This document shows positions 3 through 32,560 of a stretch of DNA of 35,838 nucleotides, in pieces; the first letter of the stretch is position 1; the number at the start of each line of letters is the position of its first letter. Source of the DNA: Spirochaetaceae bacterium (GTDB lineage Bacteria > Spirochaetota > Spirochaetia > CADAEX01); NCBI GenBank assembly GCA_009780675.1, contig WQZP01000022.1, positions 1-35,838 of the forward strand, given 5' to 3'. The notes under the pieces were generated by a model. It made no database searches and was not told the DNA's origin. It saw only the letters and a program-made list of their open reading frames with translations. The translations under genes were made by a program, and so were the position numbers.

Positions 3-3000
3 TCTGTTACAATATCTAATACAGATGATTTAACTCTTACAAATATCAATACAGGAACAGTCTCTCTATCAATGCCGTCGTCAATGGGGTTAGTAGAAAT
101 TGACTGGGGAACTAGTTTAGCTTTACCAGGCTTTTCAGCAACAAGCCTTAATGTAACAACAACAGCCGGAAATATAAGCCAGCAGGGTGGAACAACAATA
201 AGTGTAGACCCTGGAACTCTTACTTTTACCTCCGCAGGTGATATTACCCAGCCAACAGGTGCTACAATATTTACTTCACCTGCGGGCACCTCAAGTTTTT
301 CAGCAGCAGGGGAGATAATTCTGGTTGGGACAAATAATAGCTTTAGAAATGCAGTTACAATAGCTGGAATAGGACCAAATAGAGACTTAAGAATAAGAAA
401 TGACTATACGCTACCCCCTCCGGGATCAATAGCGCTTGATTTACCTACGATGCTAGCCCCGACAGCTATGGGAGCAGTGGTAATTGATTGGGGAACAGGG
501 CTGGTTTTGTCCGGGTTAAATGCAGCAAGCCTTAGTGTAACAACAAGAAATGATGGGAATCTAACCCAGCTGGGTGGAACAACAATAAATGTAACAACGG
601 GAGATCTTGCTTTTACCTCTGATGGGGATATAATCCAGCAGGCTAACGCAACAATAAATGTAACATCTGGAGATCTTGTTTTTGACTCTGCAGGTAATAT
701 TACCCAGCCAGCAACTTCTAGAATAACTGCTGTGAGTGCCTCAAGTTTTACAGCAGTAGGGAACATAGCCCTTGCGGGACTAGAAAACAGCTTTGGTGGA
801 GTTGTAAGTGTAGAAGGGGAAGAAGTAACAGTTGTTGCAACTGGGCATATAACGTTTGGCGACAGCACTGCAGAAATCCTTAGTGTAACAACAGGAAATA
901 ATGGAAATATAATCCAGCAAGATCTAACAACAATAAATGTAACATCTGGAACTCTTACTTTTAACTCCGCAGGGAATATTACACAGCCAATAGGTTCTGA
1001 AATAATTGCTGCGAACACCTCAAGTTTTACAGCAGCAGGAGAGATAACCCTTGACGGGGCAGCTAATGAGTTTAGGGACACAGTTACAATAGCTGGAATA
1101 GGGCTAAATAGAAACTTAAGAATAACAAATGACTATACGCTACCCCCTCCGGGATCAATAGCGCTTGATTTACCTACGATGCTAGCCCCGACAGCTATGG
1201 GAGCAGTGGTAATTGATTGGGGAACAGGGCTGGATTTATCCGGGTTAAGAGCAGCAAGCCTTAGTGTAACAACAAGAAATAATGGAAATATAACCCAGAA
1301 TGCTGGAACAACAATAAGTGTAACATCAGGAGCTCTTATTCTTAACTCCGCAGGAGCTATTACACAGCCAGCAAATTCTGCAATATCAACTTCACTTACG
1401 AGTACCTCAAGTTTTACAGCAGTAGGGGACATAAACCTTATTGGAGAAGATAACAGCTTTGGTGGAGTTGTAAGTGCAGTAGGTGCAGCAGTAACAGTTG
1501 TTGCAGATGGGCATATAACGGTTGGCAACAGCACTGCAACAAGCCTTAGTGTAAGAACAAGAAATAATGGGAATATAAGTCAGGCTGGCGGAACAACAAT
1601 AAATGTAACACCTGGAACTCTTACTTTTGATTCCGCAGGCAATATTACCCAGCAGGCTAACGCAACAATAAATGTAACAACAGGAACTCTTACTTTTGAT
1701 TCCGTAGGCAGTATTACCCAGCAGGCTAACGCAACAATAAATGTAACAACAGGAACTCTTGCTTTTACCTCCGCAGCAGGTAATATTACACAGCCAGCAG
1801 GCCCTTTACCAACAGGTGCTGTAATAAGTGTTGGGGGTATCTCAAGTTTTTCAGCACCAGCAGGGGATATAATTTTGCTTGGGGCAGGTAATAGTTTTGA
1901 AGATGCAGTTACAATAGATGATATAGGACCAAATAGAGACTTAAGAATAATAAATGCCTTTGGGCCATCACCCCCGGGATTGATAGCGCTTACTTTGCCT
2001 TCAACAACTTTTGGAGCAGTGGTAATTGATTGGGGGACAGGGCTGGTTTTATCCGGGTTAAATGCAGCAAGCCTTAGTGTAACAACAAGAAATAATGGGA
2101 ATCTAACCCAGCAAGGTGTAACAGCAATAAATGTAACATCTGGAGCGCTTATCTTTAACTCCGCAGGTGATATTACACAGCCAGCAACTTCTACAATATT
2201 AACTTCACCTACGAGTACCTCAAGTTTTTCAGCAGCAGGGGAGATAATTCTGGTTGGGACAAATAATAACTTTAGAAATACAGTTGCAATAGCTGGAATA
2301 GGATCAAATAGAGACTTAAGAATAAGAAATATCTTTGCGCCACCACCTCCGGGATCAATAGCGCTTAATTTGCTTCCCGAAGGGACCGTGACACATGGAG
2401 CAGTGGAAATTTACTGGGGAGCAGGCTTAGCATTAACCACCTTTAGAGCAGCAAGCCTTGATGTAACAGCCAGAGGGAATATAACCCAAAGTGGTTTGCT
2501 TCATATTAATGGATCAACTACTTTGCGAACAGGTTCAGGTTTAAGTTCAAGAATAGAACTGGGAAGTTTTGCAAACATATTTGGAACTGCAACTACAGAC
2601 ACAATAACAATAAATTCTTATCCCACTCCCGGAGGCAACCTGGAAGATGTTCATTTATGGAATGCTGCTCCAAATGCTGCTATGCCAGTATTTGCCGCGG
2701 ATTTAACAATAACCCATAATTTAACTTTGAGATGGACAAACTCTGTGATAACTTTGGGACCTTTTACTGTACTTGAAAATCTAGTGCTTGAGGCATTTGG
2801 AACAATAACCCAGACAGGTAACTTTGTAGTAGGAGACAGAACCACTCTTAGGGCAGGTGCAGCAGTAAACCAAGGTACGCATCGCATAGAGAGTAATGAG
2901 CTTCTGCTTCTTGGAGCAGGACCTTATAATCTTACAGGTCCCAACGATATAGGGACACTTGCCGCTTTTACAGGGGGAACTGCTCCTCCTGCTCCAGGAG

Positions 3001-6000
3001 CTATTTCATTCGAAAATAATGGCCCTTTTACGGTAGGGCTTCTTCCGGCAATTCCATTGCATCCTCTTTTAGGGACAGGGGATGGAATTGTAACAACAGG
3101 CGGAAATATTTCTCTGACTAATACAGGAAGTGGTGTCATTACTATTGAGCGAAATATAGCTTCTTCGGGCGGAGCCATAACATTTAATAATAATGTTGAA
3201 ATAAATAATCAAACTTTACTATCAGAGTTGCTTATTGCAACAACAGGAACAACTGTTAACGGAGCAATAATCTTTAATGAATCTGTGACAGGGGCATCAT
3301 CTCTTCGCTTGACAGCAGGTATGACAGGTGCCACGGGAAATATCGAATTTAGAGGCCCTGTAGGCACTGCGACGAATAGATTTGGAGCTATAATAATAGA
3401 TGCTAATGCTGTAACTTTTGATGAACCTGTATTTGCCGGAAGCGCTAATATAACCAATCGGGGACTGCTTTCAATAAATCCCGGAGCAAATTTTGACCTT
3501 ACTGGGCCATTTACTCAAAGAGGGGGAGGTGCTGTAAGCCTTGGCGCAAATATAAGAGCTGGAACTCATTTTACAGGACCTGCTCCTGGCACAAATACTT
3601 CAATATTTTTTAATGGAGCAGTATCCTTGACAACACCTTTGGATGCAGTTCCTGTAAGATTAACAACAAATGGAGCTTCTGCAGCAAATGGAATTACATT
3701 TAACAATACAGTAAATGGCATGCGAGACCTTATTTTGGAAGCAGGAGCAGGTAATGTAGTATTTAATCAGCCTGTAGGTGGAGGAACACCGCTTAGAGAT
3801 ATAACAATAGGAGATCCTGTGCCGCCTGCTTCTGGCGCTGGAAACGTTACATTTTCTGCAGGAGCAGGCGTATTTGCCAGACATGTTAATATTATCAACT
3901 CTGGAAACCTTGCAATAAATAGCGGGGCAAATTTTAATCTTACTGGCGACTTTGTGCAACGGGCGCCAGGAGCAACTGTAAGCCTTGGCGCAAATATAGA
4001 AACAGCAAGTCCTTTTGAAATACGTTTTTATGGAGCAGTAACCTTACTACTGCCTGCGACACCTCCTATAACATTAACAACAGGTTCTGGTGCAGGTAAT
4101 ATTGTTTTTCTCAATACAGTAAATGGCACACAAGACCTTACTTTAATAGCAGGCACAGGTGATGTAACGTTCAGTGGCGCTGTAGGTGCAGCGCCAGGCG
4201 GAGCTCCGCTTAGAAATATAGAAATAACTGCTAGAGATGTCATATTTGCTCCAAATGCATCTGTAGTAACTGGACCTGCAGCTGGAGCTGGACGTGTTGT
4301 TATAGACAATAGTAGATTTCTTACAATAAACTCTGGGGCAAATTTTAATCTTACTGGCCCATTTACTCAAATAGGGGGAGGCGATGTAAACCTTGGCGCA
4401 AATATAACAACATCAAATAATTCTGAAATACTTTTTAACGGAGCAGTATCCTTAACACTGCCCGCGACACCTCCTATAACATTAACAACAGGCGCTGGTG
4501 CAGGTAATATTACATTTAACAATACAGTAAATGGCACACAAGACCTCACTTTGGAAGCAGGCGCAGGTGATGTATGGTTTGATAATACTGTAGGCGCTAC
4601 GACTCCGCTTAGAGATATAGAAATAGCTGCTGGAGCTGTTACATTTGCTCCAAATGCATCTGTAGTAACTGGACCTGTAGCTGGAACTGGACGTGTTACT
4701 ATAAACAATGCCGAGTTGCTTACAATAAGCTCTGGAGCAAACTTTAATCTTTCTGGTAACTTTGTGCAAACTGGCGCTGGCGAAGTTCTTTCTGCAGCAA
4801 GCTTGGTAACAACAGGGACTATTACTTTTGATTCTGTAGTACATTTTGCAGGTGACCCTGCTCCTGCTGGTGGCACTATTATAGAAATATCAGCAAACAC
4901 CGCGCCCCATGTTCTTCTTCATAGGGATGTTTACATATATCTTCCACCTTCAGTAATAATCGAATTTGGTAACCGTTTTGAATGTGAGAATTTTATACTG
5001 CTTAGCGGTACTGCTCGTTTGCGCAATAATATTACTCTTGCAACAAGACAGGATTTTGTAGCTCTTGGTACTGGATATAGTATTGATGATAACTTGCCAG
5101 GCGGTTCGGGTGTTGCAGGTCTTTTTGCATATCATCAGCCTCCTCATCCTCATCCTTTTGCAAGACCTACATTAATACAAACACCCGCAGGTATTCTTAC
5201 TAAACCGATTCCAATAGGAACAGGAGTTGTTGTTAGTCCAAGTAATTATGCTGGTAGATTTGATAGTATTGGCACTGGCGCGAGAATTCTTGTTGGTCAG
5301 AATTTTTATGTAAATGGTTCTGATATGCTTGGGCCCACAGGCGTATGGATGCTTGATATTCCAGATAATAATTATTCTGCAGATGCATTTGCAGAAGCAT
5401 ATAATATGACTGTTTCTAACTCCCGTGTTGAATCTCGCGGAAATGCAACAGCAACAGCATGGGTTGCTGCTGCCGAGAATGTTGCATTTCCAGGCACTGA
5501 TCCAAATCCAGCAGGTGGTACTTCTGGCTGGGCTTACAGACGATCCACCATAATGCCTGGAAATGTTGATCGTAGAGGAACAGATTGGGAGCGTAGAACC
5601 CTAGGGGTTGACCTTAATCATCCAGAGGGTTTTCTAATCGAGGAAAGTAGGTTGACAGGAACTGTTACGATTTTTGATAATGTCATAAGAGTACAGATAA
5701 CCACTTATCCGCCTGCTGCAGATCCCGTACTCACCGCGCACATCCCAAATCTCAAATTCGAAAACACAAATAACGAGATACAAAGAGCTATTGGCACAGT
5801 TGCAGTTCCAGGTGCATTAAGAATAAATAACAATACTGCAAATGTAGTAGCATTTGTTGACAGAGACCTCACAATCCCTACGAGTGATTATCCGTATGAT
5901 CTTGCGGTATTTTATCTAATGGCCAGAGATACTACATGGACTACAGATGCAACAGGCAGTGTTCTTGGACACGCTAACAGCACAGATATGTCTGGGAATC

Positions 6001-8873
6001 CACGAAATGTTTTACCCAATATTTTCGCGCCTAAAGCAGCAGTCAGACCAGACCCGGCCCCCGATATTTTCTTTTCTTTGCTTGACAATAGAAAAAACAG
6101 GATCACTATAAACAATACAGCCCCAGCCAGCGCCCCAGTCGTCACATTTACAGCTGTAGAAGATTTTTGCAGACCTGTTGTTGTGCGCATAGAAACAGGG
6201 CGCGATCCTAACACAGGAGGCACTTATAACTGGCACAACTTTTTCGAAATAACATATTCAGAACCTGTACGTTTTGGGGGAACTGAAACTACAATGGGAA
6301 GTATAGATATGGGTCTTGCTGCTTTCCCAGGCCACAATCCGGACCCGGCACTTATTCCTACTGGTGCTGCTTATACTACAACAGATGGTGGCTTAAGGGC
6401 AACCAGAGAATTTAATCCTTCAGCCGGCCAATTCGGAGGACATCTTTTTGAGTCTGATCCTTCTGGCAATCTCGCGCCTAATTCTGGGGTCGTAAGGATG
6501 TCTGGTTTTTTTGAATATGGAGACCCTGTTCATAATCCAGCAAGATTTAGATCTGGTTCGCAACATATAGATGGAAGGCTTCTAACTACAGATGGAACGC
6601 CTTCATCTGTAGTCATCCCCGGAATACTGAATAATAATGTACCATCAAATGTATTATTCAGGCACGCAGATAAAGGTAATGTGCATGGAATTAGAATATA
6701 TGTTGTGGGGTTTAGTCCTGGTACTCTGAGGACTATACCTACCAATAACATTCATAATCAGGGTGACGATACTCTCCCAGTAAGATGGTGGCCTGGCTAT
6801 ATGTTTGATCATGAGGAGCCACTACCAGCACCGCCACCAGCACCACCGCCACCACCAATACCACCAACAGCGCCACCAGAGGGGAGAGTAGCAAGAATTC
6901 TCCCTACTACGTATATACGGGATAACAGTGGTGGAGCACTAGTGACGCCTAGACCGGGAAATGTTTTAAATGAATTGCCATACCGACGCTATTTTATTGG
7001 TACTAATCCTATTCCGGAGCAAAGTCGAATACAAACAACAATTACTCCTTTAGGGCCGTCATCACCTTTTCCTCCTCCTCCTACTCCTACTACTCCGCTT
7101 AGAGCACACTGGGTACAACCAGAAATCGCTTATTTCGAGAAGCCAGATGTAAGAGAGGTCGTGAGAATTGACACTAATAATAATGGGCTTACAGACAGAC
7201 TTGAATTTCATATACATATACCACCAACTCCAGTTGCAGTATGGGATATTACGAATCACCCGGAAGATGGTTATTCTGGCGGACCTGTTGGGCTTAGCAC
7301 ATTTGATCGTGGTAAAGGTGTAAGGGATTCATCTATTACCGCAGAAACTTTTAGGGCTTTTAGAATAGGTCATAATGATGACGAATACTACAACTACGAG
7401 TTATACAGAAACAACCCTTTCTTTTGCACAAGAGTAAGAAATCCTATGTTTAATCCAATGATTCCGCAAGGGATCAGGTTTGCTGATGATACCTATTTTT
7501 CAATTTCTTTTGATGACATAGAGGCTCCAGTATGGTACTTGACTTTTGCTGCTCCTCATATTTTTACATATAGAGAAGAAGGTGGAATCACAGACCTTGC
7601 AGGCAATCTTTTGCGCGGTGCCCGGTTGCAGTTGACTATAGCGCCTATGCCGCCAACAATTCAATATACAATAGCTTCTGTTGATAGTCGCAGAGTATAT
7701 GTAAAATTTGATGAATTTGTGTTCCGTACATATCCACTTAATAGAGATGACTTGCTTACTGCAGAGGATTTTGAAATAGTAAATGCAGATGGGACACCAT
7801 ATATTAACCACCTTACTGGCTTGCCTTTTAGAATCAGTGAGGTTTATTTTGACCCTCAGGATGTAAGACAGAGACCTCGGCCAGACGCAGATATTGGCAG
7901 AGACGAAAACGTAGCCGAAGGTATCTTTTTTATTCTTAATTATCCTCTTGAGCCAAATGACTTGCTTAATGCGAGGATAAGACCTGCCAGATTTTATGAT
8001 AGCGACGGGATCGCAAGAAGCAGGGTGTCTAATCTGGCTAACCTGGAGATGAGCCTCGAAATAACATATCGCATAAGCAATTTTGCAATTGGGCTTGCAA
8101 TACCAGTATGGGCAATGGATAGCTTTGATCCAGACGGACGTCATCCAGATCAAAGCACTGCTAATGTAATTATGCGTGATTTTACAGGAAAAGACAGGCT
8201 TCGTGCATCGGATATAACTCTTGAAGTTGTTCTTGATGAGAGATTGGAAAATAAAAGTGGTATTCCTGTTGCAATGTACTTTGACTCAGGTATTCCTGAT
8301 GCTGTAAGAGTAATTCCACCCCCTTCTAACTTTTGGATTCCTTCACTTTTTCCTGGTTTTAACCGTTCTGCAAATAGTGGTGCGAGAATGCTTAGGCCTG
8401 TTTCTTTGCCATCAGAAAGGCATAGAAATTTTGTTATTCCTGCTTCTGACAGCGCAGTAAATGCTGGAAGAAATATAGAATTTATATTTACTGTTCTTGG
8501 GCTGTATGCTGGATATCTTACTAATCCTGAGGACCCAAGAAGCGTAACTCCATGGAAAATCCCTATCCATGGTATAAGAACGCAGCGTGGCGGAGTTACA
8601 ATACTCAATAATGTTATAAATGTATCGCGTGGGGATAGGGCTGTATTAATGTATGATCTCCAGAGAACAGGTCATGTTACGGTAAATATTTTTAACCTTG
8701 CTGGCAATGTTGTAAAAACACTTGTAAAAGGGGTGCAGCCGCAGGGACGTTACATCTATACATGGGATGGGACAAATACAGGCGGAAGGCGTGTTGCGCG
8801 AGGAATCTATTTTATAAGAGTTGTTGGTCCTGACATAGATGAATTCAGAAAAGTAATGGTTGTCAGGGATTGA
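3..8873 (+). CDS. Giant repetitive surface protein, haemagglutinin-like beta-helix with C-terminal FlgD-type Ig domain (5' truncated)
   Basis: The frame is open from base 3 with no start, so the gene begins upstream; the ATG at 72 is only internal. At least 2956 residues are visible. Bases 3 to about 2500 encode beta-strand-rich repeats (motifs GAVVIDWGTGL, SLSVTTRN, GNITQ, TTINVT) typical of filamentous-haemagglutinin-like parallel beta-helices. A second repeat family (motif INSGANFNLTG) spans about 3470-4800. From about 4850 the sequence is non-repetitive, with proline-rich linkers near 6820-6890 and 7067-7095. Around 7130-7660 lies an SbsA/Big_5-like Ig module (DTNNNGLTDRLEFHI and ITDLAGNLL). 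Bases 8626-8873 encode a FlgD-type Ig domain (NIFNLAGNVVKTL, YTWDGTN, GIYFIRV). A secreted adhesin or surface-layer role is inferred. The signal peptide and any secretion domain lie outside the window, so the export route is unknown. Confidence 0.85.
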   Translation, partial: SVTISNTDDLTLTNINTGTVSLSMPSSMGLVEIDWGTSLALPGFSATSLNVTTTAGNISQQGGTTISVDPGTLTFTSAGDITQPTGATIFTSPAGTSSFSAAGEIILVGTNNSFRNAVTIAGIGPNRDLRIRNDYTLPPPGSIALDLPTMLAPTAMGAVVIDWGTGLVLSGLNAASLSVTTRNDGNLTQLGGTTINVTTGDLAFTSDGDIIQQANATINVTSGDLVFDSAGNITQPATSRITAVSASSFTAVGNIALAGLENSFGGVVSVEGEEVTVVATGHITFGDSTAEILSVTTGNNGNIIQQDLTTINVTSGTLTFNSAGNITQPIGSEIIAANTSSFTAAGEITLDGAANEFRDTVTIAGIGLNRNLRITNDYTLPPPGSIALDLPTMLAPTAMGAVVIDWGTGLDLSGLRAASLSVTTRNNGNITQNAGTTISVTSGALILNSAGAITQPANSAISTSLTSTSSFTAVGDINLIGEDNSFGGVVSAVGAAVTVVADGHITVGNSTATSLSVRTRNNGNISQAGGTTINVTPGTLTFDSAGNITQQANATINVTTGTLTFDSVGSITQQANATINVTTGTLAFTSAAGNITQPAGPLPTGAVISVGGISSFSAPAGDIILLGAGNSFEDAVTIDDIGPNRDLRIINAFGPSPPGLIALTLPSTTFGAVVIDWGTGLVLSGLNAASLSVTTRNNGNLTQQGVTAINVTSGALIFNSAGDITQPATSTILTSPTSTSSFSAAGEIILVGTNNNFRNTVAIAGIGSNRDLRIRNIFAPPPPGSIALNLLPEGTVTHGAVEIYWGAGLALTTFRAASLDVTARGNITQSGLLHINGSTTLRTGSGLSSRIELGSFANIFGTATTDTITINSYPTPGGNLEDVHLWNAAPNAAMPVFAADLTITHNLTLRWTNSVITLGPFTVLENLVLEAFGTITQTGNFVVGDRTTLRAGAAVNQGTHRIESNELLLLGAGPYNLTGPNDIGTLAAFTGGTAPPAPGAISFENNGPFTVGLLPAIPLHPLLGTGDGIVTTGGNISLTNTGSGVITIERNIASSGGAITFNNNVEINNQTLLSELLIATTGTTVNGAIIFNESVTGASSLRLTAGMTGATGNIEFRGPVGTATNRFGAIIIDANAVTFDEPVFAGSANITNRGLLSINPGANFDLTGPFTQRGGGAVSLGANIRAGTHFTGPAPGTNTSIFFNGAVSLTTPLDAVPVRLTTNGASAANGITFNNTVNGMRDLILEAGAGNVVFNQPVGGGTPLRDITIGDPVPPASGAGNVTFSAGAGVFARHVNIINSGNLAINSGANFNLTGDFVQRAPGATVSLGANIETASPFEIRFYGAVTLLLPATPPITLTTGSGAGNIVFLNTVNGTQDLTLIAGTGDVTFSGAVGAAPGGAPLRNIEITARDVIFAPNASVVTGPAAGAGRVVIDNSRFLTINSGANFNLTGPFTQIGGGDVNLGANITTSNNSEILFNGAVSLTLPATPPITLTTGAGAGNITFNNTVNGTQDLTLEAGAGDVWFDNTVGATTPLRDIEIAAGAVTFAPNASVVTGPVAGTGRVTINNAELLTISSGANFNLSGNFVQTGAGEVLSAASLVTTGTITFDSVVHFAGDPAPAGGTIIEISANTAPHVLLHRDVYIYLPPSVIIEFGNRFECENFILLSGTARLRNNITLATRQDFVALGTGYSIDDNLPGGSGVAGLFAYHQPPHPHPFARPTLIQTPAGILTKPIPIGTGVVVSPSNYAGRFDSIGTGARILVGQNFYVNGSDMLGPTGVWMLDIPDNNYSADAFAEAYNMTVSNSRVESRGNATATAWVAAAENVAFPGTDPNPAGGTSGWAYRRSTIMPGNVDRRGTDWERRTLGVDLNHPEGFLIEESRLTGTVTIFDNVIRVQITTYPPAADPVLTAHIPNLKFENTNNEIQRAIGTVAVPGALRINNNTANVVAFVDRDLTIPTSDYPYDLAVFYLMARDTTWTTDATGSVLGHANSTDMSGNPRNVLPNIFAPKAAVRPDPAPDIFFSLLDNRKNRITINNTAPASAPVVTFTAVEDFCRPVVVRIETGRDPNTGGTYNWHNFFEITYSEPVRFGGTETTMGSIDMGLAAFPGHNPDPALIPTGAAYTTTDGGLRATREFNPSAGQFGGHLFESDPSGNLAPNSGVVRMSGFFEYGDPVHNPARFRSGSQHIDGRLLTTDGTPSSVVIPGILNNNVPSNVLFRHADKGNVHGIRIYVVGFSPGTLRTIPTNNIHNQGDDTLPVRWWPGYMFDHEEPLPAPPPAPPPPPIPPTAPPEGRVARILPTTYIRDNSGGALVTPRPGNVLNELPYRRYFIGTNPIPEQSRIQTTITPLGPSSPFPPPPTPTTPLRAHWVQPEIAYFEKPDVREVVRIDTNNNGLTDRLEFHIHIPPTPVAVWDITNHPEDGYSGGPVGLSTFDRGKGVRDSSITAETFRAFRIGHNDDEYYNYELYRNNPFFCTRVRNPMFNPMIPQGIRFADDTYFSISFDDIEAPVWYLTFAAPHIFTYREEGGITDLAGNLLRGARLQLTIAPMPPTIQYTIASVDSRRVYVKFDEFVFRTYPLNRDDLLTAEDFEIVNADGTPYINHLTGLPFRISEVYFDPQDVRQRPRPDADIGRDENVAEGIFFILNYPLEPNDLLNARIRPARFYDSDGIARSRVSNLANLEMSLEITYRISNFAIGLAIPVWAMDSFDPDGRHPDQSTANVIMRDFTGKDRLRASDITLEVVLDERLENKSGIPVAMYFDSGIPDAVRVIPPPSNFWIPSLFPGFNRSANSGARMLRPVSLPSERHRNFVIPASDSAVNAGRNIEFIFTVLGLYAGYLTNPEDPRSVTPWKIPIHGIRTQRGGVTILNNVINVSRGDRAVLMYDLQRTGHVTVNIFNLAGNVVKTLVKGVQPQGRYIYTWDGTNTGGRRVARGIYFIRVVGPDIDEFRKVMVVRD
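398..504 (+). repeat. 107-bp exact direct repeat, copy 1
   Basis: Identical base for base to 1127-1233, offset 729 bp (243 codons, in frame). It encodes the PPPGSIALDLP to VVIDWGTGL segment of the giant surface protein. Perfect identity, including silent positions, points to recent duplication or gene conversion. Confidence 0.9.
1127..1233 (+). repeat. 107-bp exact direct repeat, copy 2
   Basis: Second copy of the 398-504 repeat. Diverged relatives of the same unit occur near 1914 and 2289, judged by the IAGIG/IDDIG...NRDLRI signature. Units therefore start at about 360, 1089, 1914 and 2289, with spacings of 729, 825 and 375 bp. Confidence 0.9.
1612..1760 (+). repeat. 69-bp tandem repeat (23 residues per unit) inside the giant gene
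   Basis: Bases 1643-1691 are identical to 1712-1760, and the shared phase runs back to about 1612. Each unit encodes a TLTF-S-G-ITQQANATINVTTG rung, consistent with one coil of a beta-helix. The in-frame period allows copy-number change without frameshift. Confidence 0.85.
3474..4800 (+). repeat. About 400-bp repeat array in the giant gene (second repeat family)
   Basis: Four units start with an INSGANFNLTG-type motif at about 3474, 3915, 4326 and 4725, spaced 441, 411 and 399 bp. Each continues with a LGANI, FNGAVSL, PPITLTTG, VNGTQDL, PNASVVTGP succession. A 35-bp stretch at 4244-4278 is exactly repeated at 4643-4677. All spacings are multiples of three. Confidence 0.85.
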
Positions 8874-27990: not shown

Positions 27991-28019
27991 TTGTTTCATA
28001 TTATTTATTGTGCTATAAT
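27991..28019 (+). promoter_or_regulatory. Sigma70-type promoter of the envelope operon
   Basis: TTGTTT (27991-27996), 17-base spacer, TGCTATAAT (extended -10, TATAAT 28014-28019). The predicted start at about 28026 excludes the ATG at 28024 and supports translation from 28039. Confidence 0.7.
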
Positions 28020-28038
28020 TTAAATGTTTTTAGAAGTA

Positions 28039-29109
28039 ATGAAAAAAAGAACCTTATTTTTGATATTAATTATAATCCTGTTATTCTCAGTATCAGGCTG
28101 CCATACAGAAGGAAATTACCTTTCCCTAAATGCGCAAGACAGAGGCAGGTTTAATAGGCTTTATAGACAGCTTGAAGCAGAAACATCTTATCAAAAAAGG
28201 TTTATAGTAATGAGGCAGATACTTGAATTTCTGTCAGGAAAAGTAAGTAATGGAGAGATAAACCTTTTTCTTACAACATATGCTGAAAAAAATCAGGATG
28301 ACCCTTTTAATGCTTATTATCTTATGGTTGTTGCGCGGAAATTCCGTGAAGATATGGCATTTCCATTTGCAGTAAAGTATTATGAAAGGATTCTGAGAAA
28401 TTATCATGATCTTTTATATAGGGGTAATTCAATACATTTTCTTGCTTTGCGGGATCTTTTGGATATTGTTGATGATGATGAAGCAAGAATTCTCTATTAT
28501 AGAGATAAGATTACAAGATTTAGTGATAATATAAATGTAAGTGAAATTTATTATCATCTTGGAAATTCCTATGCAAGAATGGGAGAGTGGGATCGGGCAA
28601 TTCAAGCGTACCGCAATTTCCTTAATACTTATGATAGTTCCATTAGTGTTGATTCAGATGCGCGGGAAAGAGTAGTGGAGTTTTTAGCTTATTACAATGC
28701 AAATGTAAACTGGACATTTGAGTCTCTGGATGAGCTTGTCGATAAAGTAGTAAGCAATATTAATGTGGCTAAATTCAGGAGCGACGGCAGATTACTTAGG
28801 TCAAATATGTCAAGGGTTAATTTTTTTGCTATATCCTGGGAAGATCGGGAGAGAACAGCAGACCCGGAATTTATTGCAAATTTGGGCGTATTTCTTTCTC
28901 CAAGAATTTCTGTAAGTAGATCCCTTGATGGCGCTTCTAACCAGCATGAAGCATTTCTTAGAACAACAGGCTGGTCGCACAGAATACCTACATGGTATCT
29001 TTATTTCAGGCGGGTAAATTTTCCAGCAGATTCAGAGATCCATAGAAATTGGGAGTGGGCAGGTATATATTTAGGAGAAAAACCTTTTGCAGTGTCAGAT
29101 GAAAGATAA
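28039..29109 (+). CDS. TPR-like lipoprotein
   Basis: 356 residues from the ATG at 28039, chosen over 28024 because the promoter's predicted start lies between them. Signal MKKRTLFLILIIILLFSVSGC with lipobox VSGC. The mature part is helical; ALRDLLDIVDDDEARILYYRDKI and IYYHLGNSYARMGEWDRAIQAYRNFL are TPR/Sel1-like helix pairs of the kind that mediate protein contacts. A beta-rich C-terminus follows. First gene of a three-gene unit with a lytic transglycosylase, overlapping it by 11 bases. Probably a periplasmic or outer-membrane scaffold for that enzyme (inference). Confidence 0.78.
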   Translation: MKKRTLFLILIIILLFSVSGCHTEGNYLSLNAQDRGRFNRLYRQLEAETSYQKRFIVMRQILEFLSGKVSNGEINLFLTTYAEKNQDDPFNAYYLMVVARKFREDMAFPFAVKYYERILRNYHDLLYRGNSIHFLALRDLLDIVDDDEARILYYRDKITRFSDNINVSEIYYHLGNSYARMGEWDRAIQAYRNFLNTYDSSISVDSDARERVVEFLAYYNANVNWTFESLDELVDKVVSNINVAKFRSDGRLLRSNMSRVNFFAISWEDRERTADPEFIANLGVFLSPRISVSRSLDGASNQHEAFLRTTGWSHRIPTWYLYFRRVNFPADSEIHRNWEWAGIYLGEKPFAVSDER

Positions 29110-30436
29110 ACTTTTTTTTATATTTTTTATTTTTATTTTTAATTCGCTATTATTTTCAGCGCCGCTACCTTTTAGCGGAGATGTTAATAATATTAGTGTT
29201 GCGAGAAGTACTGCTACTCCAAGATGGCTTGAGTCTGCGCAAACACATTCAGGAAGAAAAGTTTTTACTTTGAATGCTCCGGAAGATAATAAGCTTTTTA
29301 ATTACTATATGGAAAGATTTAGTTCTCCTGAACAACTAAGATGGCTTAATGTAGTAATGGAGCGGGCAGATATTTATATTGATTTTATTGACGACCTTCT
29401 CCATCAAAATAATATGCCGCATGAAATTCTTTTTCTTCCAGTAATAGAATCAGCGTTCAGGCAAAATGCGGTTTCACGTTCCGGCGCTGCTGGTATGTGG
29501 CAATTTATGAAAAACAGTATTGCCCCGCATAATATGAGAGTAGATGAGTTTACAGATGAAAGGCGTGATTTTTGGAAAGCAACTAAAGGCGCTATTGCCA
29601 AGTTAAAGCATAATTATGAGGCGCTTGGCGGGGATTGGTATCTTGCTCTTGCTGCTTATAATTGCGGACTCAACAGGGTAAGGAGAACGATCAGCGCAAC
29701 AGGAATAAGCGATTATTGGGAGCTTAGCGAAAAAGGGCTTCTTCCCAAAGAGACGATCCACTATGTTCCAAGACTTCTTGCGATGTCGAGAATTCTTTCT
29801 CACAAAGGCAGAAACGGGATTGCAACACAATGGAGACCGCCAAACCGTTGGGAAAGGGTAAAGCTTCCCCACTCTATAAGCATATCAAGGCTTTCAGAGG
29901 CAACATCCATTCCTCTTGATGTGCTCAGGAGAGGAAATGCAGAACTTAATTTTGATATAACGCCTTCCGGAAGGGATTATTTTTTAAAGGTTCCAGAGGG
30001 GTATGGGGCTATTGTATTAAGAGCATTGGAGTCATCTGATAACCTTATGAGGTTTTATTTTTATCAAGTTAGAAGAGGCGATACTCTTTATGATATTTCA
30101 CGCCATTACGGTGTTCCGGTTAGAATGATAGAGAACTATAATAGAGGAATAAATCCTTCTGTTCTCCGCGTAGGGCAGAGGCTTGTTATCCCTGCATTAA
30201 GAGATGTTCTGCCATATACTGGAAGAAGAACAGCGCCTGTAGAAATACCAAGACCACGTTTAGATGACCCCGGAAGATACAGAAGAAGTTATGTTGTGCA
30301 ACCAGGCGATACGTTGTGGTCAATAGCCAGAAAGCATGGATCAGATCCGGATAGTATTGCGTATCATAATGGTCTTCAGGTGGATGGTATTCTTTCCATA
30401 GGAATGAGACTAAAAGTGCCAGAAATGGACAGTTAA
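29099..30436 (+). CDS. MltD-like lytic transglycosylase with two LysM domains
   Basis: 445 residues from ATG 29099, which overlaps the preceding stop by 11 bases. Export signal KLFFIFFIFIFNSLLFSA. The SLT domain carries catalytic E117 in LPVIESAFRQNAVSRSGAAG, then GMWQF, and ALAAYNCGLNRV. It cleaves the MurNAc-GlcNAc bond of peptidoglycan to give anhydro-MurNAc ends. Two peptidoglycan-binding LysM modules follow at about 318-365 (VRRGDTLYDIS) and 395-443 (VQPGDTLWSIA). Middle gene of the envelope unit. Likely periplasmic and acting in wall turnover, perhaps around the flagellar apparatus. Confidence 0.93.
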   Translation: MKDKLFFIFFIFIFNSLLFSAPLPFSGDVNNISVARSTATPRWLESAQTHSGRKVFTLNAPEDNKLFNYYMERFSSPEQLRWLNVVMERADIYIDFIDDLLHQNNMPHEILFLPVIESAFRQNAVSRSGAAGMWQFMKNSIAPHNMRVDEFTDERRDFWKATKGAIAKLKHNYEALGGDWYLALAAYNCGLNRVRRTISATGISDYWELSEKGLLPKETIHYVPRLLAMSRILSHKGRNGIATQWRPPNRWERVKLPHSISISRLSEATSIPLDVLRRGNAELNFDITPSGRDYFLKVPEGYGAIVLRALESSDNLMRFYFYQVRRGDTLYDISRHYGVPVRMIENYNRGINPSVLRVGQRLVIPALRDVLPYTGRRTAPVEIPRPRLDDPGRYRRSYVVQPGDTLWSIARKHGSDPDSIAYHNGLQVDGILSIGMRLKVPEMDS

Positions 30437-30450
30437 AAAAGAGATAGTTT

Positions 30451-31320
30451 ATGCTGCGTTATCTTGCTTCAGTAATTGTTTTTCTTTTTTTAGTAGGCCC
30501 CCTTTATGCCCAAAATCCCACATTTAATTATCACTCGGTTGTTGATTGGAGCGCTGGGGAGGTGGTTATAAATTTTGAAACAGTTTTTCCTCCAGGGAGC
30601 GGGTCGCTCAGAATAAGAGATAGTAGCGAGATTCTTTTTAGAAATAATTTTTTTAGAATACTAATAGATTCGATCAGCAATGATAAATATGGCCGGATCC
30701 ATTTTAATTCATCTTCTACAATGGAAGAAAGAATTCAGGCTAATCCAACGATACTTTCACACATAGATGATATTTATAATAATATTGAAAGAATGTTCAA
30801 TGTTCATACCCGGGATATGGCAGGTATGAATATGCAGTATAAGCTCAATATTTTTAGAAATATTGGAAGTTACTTTATTACGCATAGACAGCCAATAAGA
30901 TCCGAAAGAACGATTTTATGGACTCCATCGGCCCGATATACCGGCATTGTAATTTATGCGGATGATATTTACCCGGTGCATGGGGAAAATAGGGTTAGCG
31001 CTCTCCAGGTTGCCCTGTTTCCAGAAATATATGATGAAAGAATGAGAAGAGTTTTGGCCAAAAATATGGTAAGACCTGCATATCTTGAAACATGGGGAAC
31101 TGCCGGCTATTTTAGCGACCCGAATGATCCAAGGATAGCGCAGCGGGTTGGAGACAGGCCGTTATATACAAGAGCAGTCAGGCTTTTTGGCCGATATAAT
31201 ACAGATATAATAATACCTACAGTAGATGCGGAAAAAATTTTTTATAGGGGACAAAATGCAAATCTTATAGCAGAAGGAAGATTTGTAATTATAAGGACCC
31301 TGCCATCAGATACGCCATAA
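30451..31320 (+). CDS. Exported protein of unknown family, third gene of the transglycosylase unit
   Basis: 289 residues; signal peptide 1-20 (cleavage after LYAQ or LYA). Mature protein of mixed alpha/beta character with no motif I recognise; the WSAGEVVINFETVFP and TGIVIYADDIYPVHGENRV segments are the most distinctive. It starts 14 bases after the transglycosylase with a purine-rich AAGAGA ahead of the ATG, so it belongs to the same unit. Its last 32 bases overlap the convergent M20 peptidase gene. Co-occurrence suggests a cell-wall or envelope role. Confidence 0.75.
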   Translation: MLRYLASVIVFLFLVGPLYAQNPTFNYHSVVDWSAGEVVINFETVFPPGSGSLRIRDSSEILFRNNFFRILIDSISNDKYGRIHFNSSSTMEERIQANPTILSHIDDIYNNIERMFNVHTRDMAGMNMQYKLNIFRNIGSYFITHRQPIRSERTILWTPSARYTGIVIYADDIYPVHGENRVSALQVALFPEIYDERMRRVLAKNMVRPAYLETWGTAGYFSDPNDPRIAQRVGDRPLYTRAVRLFGRYNTDIIIPTVDAEKIFYRGQNANLIAEGRFVIIRTLPSDTP

Positions 31321-32518
31321 CAACAGCATCTCCTTCAAGATGATCAAGCTTGCAATGTTCATTAGGCATATGAGCTGTGCCATCAATTCTGCTCCAGACT
31401 ACAGCATCGATCCCTTTCTTTCTAAGATGCGCAGCAACTGTGCCTCCACCTATTCCTATAAGTTTTGATTTTTTACCATACACTTCCTTAATTGCTTTTT
31501 TCATAAGAGAAACAATAAGTGATTTTTTGGAAGTTGCGGGGGAAGAGCTTTTTTGCGCTATTTCGTATTTTATTTTAACTTTGTATTTTTTTTCAACTTT
31601 TTTGATAATTTTTTTAATACTGGAGAGCACTTTATCTACCCCTGTTGTTGGAAGTATTCTGCAATCCAGGTAAAAAACATCTTCGCCGGGTATTGTATTT
31701 ATGTTTGGCACATTGGCTTCTTTTTTTGTTGGGGTTATGGTTGTTCTTGGTGGACCAAAAATAGGGTCATGATCCCCAATAGTTTTTTCAAGCTTTAGAA
31801 GTTTGTTAATAAGTTTTGCAGAAGCTGTAAACGCATTTATCCCAAGATCTGGTCTTGATGCATGGCATTGTTTTCCCAATGTTGTAAATTTAAGCCATAA
31901 AATATTTTTCTCTGCAATTTCTATATGTGTGCCGCTTTCATCTCCAGCATCCGGAACAAGCACAAAATCTTCTTTTCTGAAAAGATCATGTTTTTCTATA
32001 AGAAATTTGATGCCATAATCAGAGCCTGTTTCTTCATCTGCAACGAAAAGAAGTTTTACATCATATTCCGGTACAATATTATTTTCTACAAGAGAAAGAG
32101 CTGCAAACACAGAAGCAGTAAGCCCTTGCTGATTATCCTCGACACCTCTGCCGTAAATCGTATTATCTTCTACCTTTAGTGTGTAAGGATCGCTATTCCA
32201 CAGAGAGAGTTCTCCGGGAGGAACTATATCAATATGAGACATGATCCAAAAGGTTTTGTCATGCTTTTTCCCTGGAATTTCAAGCACCATATTTGGTCTT
32301 ATTCCCCCGTCAGCGCTATTATCTTCTGCATTATACCACTTTATTTTCCCTAAATTTTTTGACTCAAGCCAGGTTTCAAGCGCTTTGGCTTTTGCAAGCT
32401 CCCCATTTCCGCCGGAACTTGGTGAGATAGCAGGTATTGAAGTTAAAAGTTTTTGAAATTCTATTATCTCTTTTCTTGCTGAAGTTATATATTTCTTTAT
32501 TAGTTCTTTTTCTGACAT
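31289..32518 (-). CDS. M20-family metallopeptidase (ArgE/DapE/ACY1 type)
   Basis: 409 residues from ATG 32518; an upstream in-frame ATG at 32539 would add only seven residues. The two-zinc site is complete: H95 and D97 (MSHIDIVP), D128 (GRGVEDNQQG), E162/E163 (ADEETGSD, with E162 as catalytic base), D190 (VPDAGDESG), and the C-terminal histidine in AHMPNEH. The WNSDPYTLKVEDNTIYGRG block is typical of peptidase members that act on di- or tripeptides, but acyl-amino-acid substrates cannot be excluded. Cytoplasmic. Divergent from the SH3 lipoprotein and overlapping the convergent envelope gene by 32 bases. Confidence 0.9.
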   Translation of the reverse strand: MSEKELIKKYITSARKEIIEFQKLLTSIPAISPSSGGNGELAKAKALETWLESKNLGKIKWYNAEDNSADGGIRPNMVLEIPGKKHDKTFWIMSHIDIVPPGELSLWNSDPYTLKVEDNTIYGRGVEDNQQGLTASVFAALSLVENNIVPEYDVKLLFVADEETGSDYGIKFLIEKHDLFRKEDFVLVPDAGDESGTHIEIAEKNILWLKFTTLGKQCHASRPDLGINAFTASAKLINKLLKLEKTIGDHDPIFGPPRTTITPTKKEANVPNINTIPGEDVFYLDCRILPTTGVDKVLSSIKKIIKKVEKKYKVKIKYEIAQKSSSPATSKKSLIVSLMKKAIKEVYGKKSKLIGIGGGTVAAHLRKKGIDAVVWSRIDGTAHMPNEHCKLDHLEGDAVVMAYLMAGSL

Positions 32519-32560
32519 CTTTTTTACTCTCTGTAACAAAATCTATTTTTTATATGTTTA

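Follow-up and report, generated by a model that had tools for sequence, protein, structure and literature searches.

A spirochaete operon of a TPR lipoprotein, an MltD-like transglycosylase and a Tp0624-family protein whose absence accompanies missing flagellar core genes

The 35,838-nucleotide contig WQZP01000022.1 of a Spirochaetaceae bacterium (assembly GCA_009780675.1; 2.4 Mb in 82 contigs, 99% completeness), hereafter called the window, carries three consecutive envelope genes, which we name P1, P2 and P3. Their predicted products are a TPR lipoprotein, an exported lytic transglycosylase resembling MltD, and a protein of the D1-D2 family typified by Tp0624 of Treponema pallidum. Within class Spirochaetia the absence of P3 accompanies the absence of flagellar core genes, and P1-P2 persist in genomes without those genes. 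We consider it probable that P3 is linked to the periplasmic flagellum in this class, and propose a site of action at the contact between the flagellar rod and hook and the cell wall.

Results

The first-pass annotation of the window had described P3 as an unrecognised exported protein. Its N-terminus does read, by eye, like a signal peptide, and P3 draws no Pfam or NCBIfam match at E ≤ 1, but it is not unrecognised, as it matches the solved structure of Tp0624 (PDB: 5JIR). A profile built from 32 P3 sequences aligns to chain 5jir_B with an E value of 6.7e-69, profile positions 22–283 pairing with chain positions 4–264 and covering both D1 and D2. A template-free AlphaFold2 model of P3 (predicted local distance difference test, pLDDT, 91.8) matches 5JIR with a Foldseek E value of 1.8e-22, a Z of 28.0 and a root-mean-square deviation (rmsd) of 2.4 for 257 aligned residues at 24% identity. 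By sequence profile and predicted fold, P3 is thus assigned to the Tp0624 D1-D2 family. The D1 domain can be aligned with Lpp20 (5ok8; Z 5.6, rmsd 3.1, 94 aligned residues), at a Z that many ribosomal S24e rows equal, and the sequence match to 9hmf_C, which bears on the question of an LPP20/FlgP-type fold, is not significant (E 0.8). P3 frames from the phylum search are 440–592 residues long in family f24 and mostly about 270–400 residues elsewhere; together with the OmpA-like tail read by eye in one Treponema-type row (L051), these lengths are consistent with D3 fusion being mainly a trait of f24.

We compared P3 with the flagellar genes in 60 genomes, comprising that of the window (G000) and 59 relatives, the fliG neighbourhood being screened by tblastn; the query genes came from the genome of the window, which has flgB, flgC, fliE to fliI, fliK, flgD, flgE and motA in a full flgB-to-motA cluster. 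The screen is sensitive enough within the class, since it also detects the core genes of distant members such as the Borrelia-type G028 and G050. P3 is present in 42 of the 60 genomes, and flgB, flgC, fliF and fliG were found in 39 of these 42; of the other three, two are cut by contig ends (G041, G051) and the third (G002), a 3.3-kb contig, gave nothing detectable. The 18 genomes without P3 consist of nine without fliG, which also lack P1 and P2, seven of the sister genus g2, and the single genomes G019 and G048. In all seven g2 genomes hslU is followed by fliF with no flgB, flgC or fliE between them, and the fetched fliG stretches (which in G009 and G010 stop shortly past fliI) contain no flgD, flgE, fliK or motA; what g2 keeps around fliG is a remnant of the flagellar genes in which those for rod and hook are missing. 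These loci (L219, L220 and L222–L226), from gut-type spirochaetes, keep hslU-fliF-fliG, and six of them also keep fliH-fliI. G019, a 5.7-Mb genome that carries a second P2-like gene besides P1-P2, has fliG by itself, none of the other flagellar queries matching within 14.5 kb (L227). G048 has flgB, flgC and fliE, and P3 was not found on its contig, which ends inside P1.

Each of the eight genomes that have fliG but show no flagellar core genes at its locus retains P1-P2 and lacks P3, so in this set P3 appears to follow the flagellum, whereas P1-P2 need not. We took as flagellated the 51 genomes with FliG minus the seven g2 genomes and G019, three undecided genomes being included; of these 43, P3 is present in 42, P2 is missing in ten (in G048 by the contig end) and P1 is missing in two. 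On an rpoB tree the flagellar trait requires three changes and P3 four, the extra one being G048 (G096 and G132 were left out of this trait comparison). The loss of P3 in g2 (1.5–1.8 Mb) is not accounted for by a small genome alone, because genomes of 0.9–1.2 Mb retain it. We kept one genome of another class, G069 (L269), which has no P3 match, out of the flagellar comparison; fliF, fliG, fliH and fliI lie near each other there, and flgB, flgC and fliE were not found in its fliG region, where the open reading frames (ORFs) are not clearly readable, in a screen that had no control genome of that class.

In a wider sample of 296 Spirochaetota genomes, P3 was found in 266 and FliG in 278; 193 have a P1 match at E ≤ 0.001, and among the weaker of these many are generic TPR matches. 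The class Spirochaetia part, 118 rows tallied by hand, contains 102 genomes with both P3 and FliG, none with P3 and no FliG, four with FliG and no P3 (three g2 genomes and G145), and 12 with neither. The other classes do not establish this pattern. Most of the sequences behind the P3 profile come from Spirochaetia, its matches elsewhere are weak (down to E values of about 1e-6) and the metagenome-assembled genomes (MAGs) are incomplete, so the other-class rows say little either way.

P2 contains an SLT domain (E 8.2e-27) and two LysM domains (E 5.9e-28), and its catalytic Glu117, with the adjacent Ser118, is invariant within the SLT motif in 27 of 27 sequences. From this layout P2 is a predicted exported, MltD-like lytic transglycosylase. 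It is the sole PF01464 (SLT) match in the window's genome, in which the MltA, MltB/SLT_2 and MltG families were not searched for. At least one PF01464 match occurs in each of the 51 FliG-bearing genomes, and none in the nine FliG-less ones (G012, G013, G018, G026, G038, G039, G043, G049 and G058 form this clade). A separate protein of the type of the Borrelia flagellar transglycosylase BB0259 scores above its family cut-off (NF047373) in 36 of the 60 genomes; the window's genome has none, which may reflect an assembly gap, since G001 of the same genus carries both kinds of enzyme. Among the 43 genomes taken as flagellated, the P2 family is missing in ten, the BB0259 type in six and both in none; nor does any of the 51 FliG-bearing genomes lack both, but eight of those 51 are without flagellar core genes. 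We dropped the idea of the two enzymes as mutually exclusive alternatives as a main claim; the 10/6/0 pattern gives it weak support and is suggestive only. In G014 (L037, 3569–5839), P2 has shrunk to a 113-residue frame in which one LysM region is recognised; P1 and P3 on either side are of full length, so that the enzyme is in decay while P1 and P3 stay.

P1 matches PF13174 (TPR_6) with an E value of 9.1e-7 and 29.6 bits, above the curated cut-off of 26.3, and has a lipobox ending at Cys21, a cysteine kept in at least 90% of 52 sequences; P1 is accordingly named a TPR lipoprotein by prediction. Its C-terminal α/β region (about residues 225–346) is highly conserved and holds many of the invariant columns, with W312, F323, W338, E339, W340, G342 and G346 unchanged in the 52 sequences. 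The fold matches of the AlphaFold2 model of P1 (pLDDT 92.1) are TPR proteins only, in rows that barely cover this C-terminal region.

The frames of P1 and P2 share 11 bases, and 14 bases separate P2 from P3 (Table 1). For the operon counts we dropped the part matches of P1 in G049 (E 8e-4, generic TPR length) and of P2 in G038 (E 1.6e-5, LysM part), together with further LysM-only or short P2 matches. P1, P2 and P3 are contiguous, in the same order and on one strand, in 28 of the 60 genomes (a contig end truncates P1 in G003). A further 21 genomes keep one pair or more side by side on the same strand: eight have P1-P3 without P2, eight P1-P2 without P3 and two P2-P3 without P1, the remainder being G024 (P2 next to P3, with P1 on a different contig), G025 (P1 next to P2, with P3 on a different contig) and G056 (all three in one place, the P2 match fragmented). 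G044 has P1 and P3 on separate contigs and no P2, G048 has P1 truncated as above, and nine genomes have none of the three. Genomes with P1 and P3 that lack P2 still have the two as neighbours in eight of nine cases (G014 keeping its P2 remnant), and in relatives the frames often overlap or abut. A search anchored on P1 at 80 named loci found P2 within the fetched stretch at 47 and P3 at 60, several others reaching contig borders. Among 18 other-class P3 loci the full trio occurs at one (L163). At L103, L106, L107 and L131 a gene is inserted in the place of P2 between P1 and P3; we considered it as a replacement enzyme and rejected it, and no functional replacement for P2 is evident because the insert looks, on reading its sequence, like an aminotransferase.

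These results bear out much of what the first-pass annotation had said of the locus, namely the three genes with their overlap and spacing, the TPR-like lipoprotein and the LysM transglycosylase. It had also pointed to gene neighbourhood across spirochaetes as the check on its proposal, and the genes are indeed neighbours in relatives, both across the class and in L163. The strong promoter that it placed ahead of them is not confirmed. The -10 element TATAAT matches the consensus at 6/6 positions, but the -35 element TTGTTT does so at only 3/6, which is why the pair is missing from the output of a consensus scan; given this weak -35 and the unlisted pair, a strong promoter is not established.

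Downstream, P4 follows P3 on the same strand at 56 of 94 P3 loci (47 of 82 distinct P3 copies), some flanks being too short to tell. Its SH3_3 match (E 6.7e-6, 26.6 bits) lies just under the cut-off of 27. The gene between P3 and P4 runs convergently into P3, the 3′ ends of the two sharing 32 bases.

Table 1. Coordinates of the features discussed, numbered along the whole window.
Feature	Position	Strand	Remarks
Promoter-like stretch	27991..28019	+	TTGTTT (27991–27996), 17 nt, TATAAT (28014–28019); read from sequence
P1	28039..29109	+	356 residues; upstream ATG at 28024 a possible ORF start
P2	29099..30436	+	start ATG 29099; alternative TTG 29087
P3	30451..31320	+	289 residues
Peptidase-like gene	31289..32539	-	reads like an M20-type peptidase; between P3 and P4
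P4	32646..33935	+	lipoprotein with SH3_3-like stretch; the peptidase-like gene between it and P3 is convergent
Large ORF	72..8873		2933 residues, repeated sections; reads like the large exported repeat proteins

Discussion

We propose that the operon encodes two modules, although for the mechanism taken as a whole, whose steps go beyond domain identity and phylogenetic profile, our confidence falls a little short of an even chance. The first would consist of P1, a membrane-anchored TPR lipoprotein, and P2, a LysM-guided lytic transglycosylase, with P2 cutting glycan strands and P1 perhaps tethering or positioning it. The second would be P3, a soluble member of the Tp0624 D1-D2 family in the periplasm that serves the flagellum there, most likely at the points where rod and hook cross the peptidoglycan or rest against it; P3 may support or license this passage or bearing at the thin wall. 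In genomes such as that of the window, for which P2 is the one PF01464 enzyme found, P2 may supply the wall opening for the flagellum. A broader version, in which P3 is a phylum-wide flagellar part or assembly helper at the rod/hook-wall contact and P2 here also takes over the wall opening made by BB0259 in Borrelia, is put forward tentatively.

Several observations weigh against a flagellar role for P3. G145, which is 99% complete, has FliG and neither P1 nor P3, and is a possible counter-example to the link, its flagellar state being judged by FliG alone. Outside the class, P3 finds no match in 14 genomes, of which 13 have FliG, and five other-class MAGs of 54–88% completeness (G103, G176, G201, G255 and G271) have P3 without FliG. 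P1-P2 do not accompany P3 at 17 of the 18 other-class loci, and reading the ORF starts around P3 at all 18 brought no flagellar gene to notice; family searches of five other-class P3 neighbours returned TPR, ankyrin or DNA-glycosylase matches, or nothing above cut-off. Within the class, the rod genes of g2 and G019 were sought at the fliG locus, not genome-wide. The P3 pattern comes down to about three independent losses; since well-supported branches force only two of the three flagellar-trait changes, the formal paired test is powerless (median p 0.5) and cannot reach significance. The FliG-less clade, moreover, is without P1, P2, every PF01464 enzyme and FliG together, and because those genes are all gone at once, cell shape or wall chemistry could there be the cause.

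This last point leads to the reading of P1-P3 as a general wall or shape module serving elongation or helical shape, with P3 and the flagella lost together as shape or wall changed. We regard it as rather unlikely, while recognising that P2 is a housekeeping-type MltD-like enzyme, that P1-P2 are retained without flagellar core genes, that no PF01464 match occurs in any of the nine FliG-less genomes, and that the frequent downstream gene, P4, codes for an SH3-like lipoprotein. Such a module would not be expected to lose P3 alone, and not P1-P2, as it has in g2 and G019, nor to keep P3 in 42 of the 43 genomes counted as flagellated when ten of them have no P2. It seems improbable that P3 serves as a brace between peptidoglycan and membrane, after the published OmpA-like or MotB-like models of Tp0624, with no specific tie to P2 and an operon that exists only for co-regulation. 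A C-terminal OmpA-like domain is indeed present in one Treponema-type P3, as read by eye at L051, and in Tp0624 itself, but the window's P3 has none and the majority of P3 frames outside f24 could not accommodate it; in Tp0624, moreover, this domain (D3) is reported not to bind diaminopimelic acid (PMC5104382).

The first-pass annotation had favoured a single complex of the three proteins, dedicated to remodelling the wall locally near the flagella. The tight, conserved gene order with its often overlapping or abutting frames would suit such a complex, but the three genes are lost separately: among the genomes taken as flagellated P2 is missing in 10/43 and P1 in 2/43, and P3 is missing in 8/8 of the fliG-bearing genomes that keep P1-P2 without core genes. 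We therefore regard the single complex as very improbable. The tie to periplasmic flagella that came with it survives in part, for P3, which is co-absent with the core genes in the class, but not for P1-P2, which persist without them.

If P3 is indeed linked to the flagellum, Tp0624, whose structure dates from 2016 and for which no functional test appears in the portions of the literature covered, is now a testable flagellar candidate. The D1-D2 unit is common to spirochaete pathogens, and within Spirochaetia its absence accompanies missing flagellar core genes. The gut spirochaetes that lack flgB-flgC-fliE at their fliF locus are natural experiments, able to set a flagellum-linked function against a general wall function. 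This analysis adds the setting of P3 in an operon and its joint absence with the flagellar core genes, neither having been met in the literature among the matches listed, as far as the available text of these extends; likewise, among the matches listed, the available text of publications on Tp0624, TP0622/TP0623, BB0397-BB0399, BB0259, LysM transglycosylases, Sphaerochaeta and the collar does not contain the operon.

Comparison with known systems

The closest likeness of P2 is to murein transglycosylase D (MltD, NF008050), with which it shares the layout of SLT and C-terminal LysM domains and the catalytic Glu (E 9.2e-48). Its score of 162.7 bits falls under the 508-bit equivalog cut-off, and for this reason we call it MltD-like and not MltD. 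E. coli MltD is a lipoprotein, whereas P2 has no lipobox Cys when read by eye and shares its operon with P1 and P3. Borrelia-type genomes have a P1-P3 pair, which we take from gene order to be BB0398/BB0397; here the two frames overlap directly (L047, L062), P2 is missing, and in two Borrelia-type genomes a divergent P4 homologue lies upstream of P1. BB0259, an SLT-type enzyme like P2, lets the flagellar hook pass the cell wall in Borrelia, according to the consulted part of its description (PMC8517470). For this family (NF047373), whose cut-off is 234 bits, P2 scores 29 and so is not assigned to the BB0259 type.

The crystal structure of Tp0624, reported in 2016, presents D1-D2 as an integrated unit, and the portion of the paper available to us assigns no function (Parker et al. 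2016, PMC5104382). Of the two models put forward in that same portion, one already includes a role of Tp0624 in the flagellum, and a term search of the main text found none of Tp0622, Tp0623 or LysM. Tp0624 has three domains, whereas the window's P3 stops at the end of D2; as the C-terminal OmpA-like D3 is missing, we file P3 under D1-D2 only. At one locus of another genome (L170) a P2 homologue lies directly before P3, and P1 was not found in that genome; the adjoining P3 is long there (476 residues). Beyond the spirochaetes, the C-terminal domain of PA1624, a two-domain Pseudomonas protein from another phylum, has a Tp0624 domain as its closest structure (DALI Z 8.3, 78 residues), a comparison made by its own authors in the excerpted text (PMC7716261).

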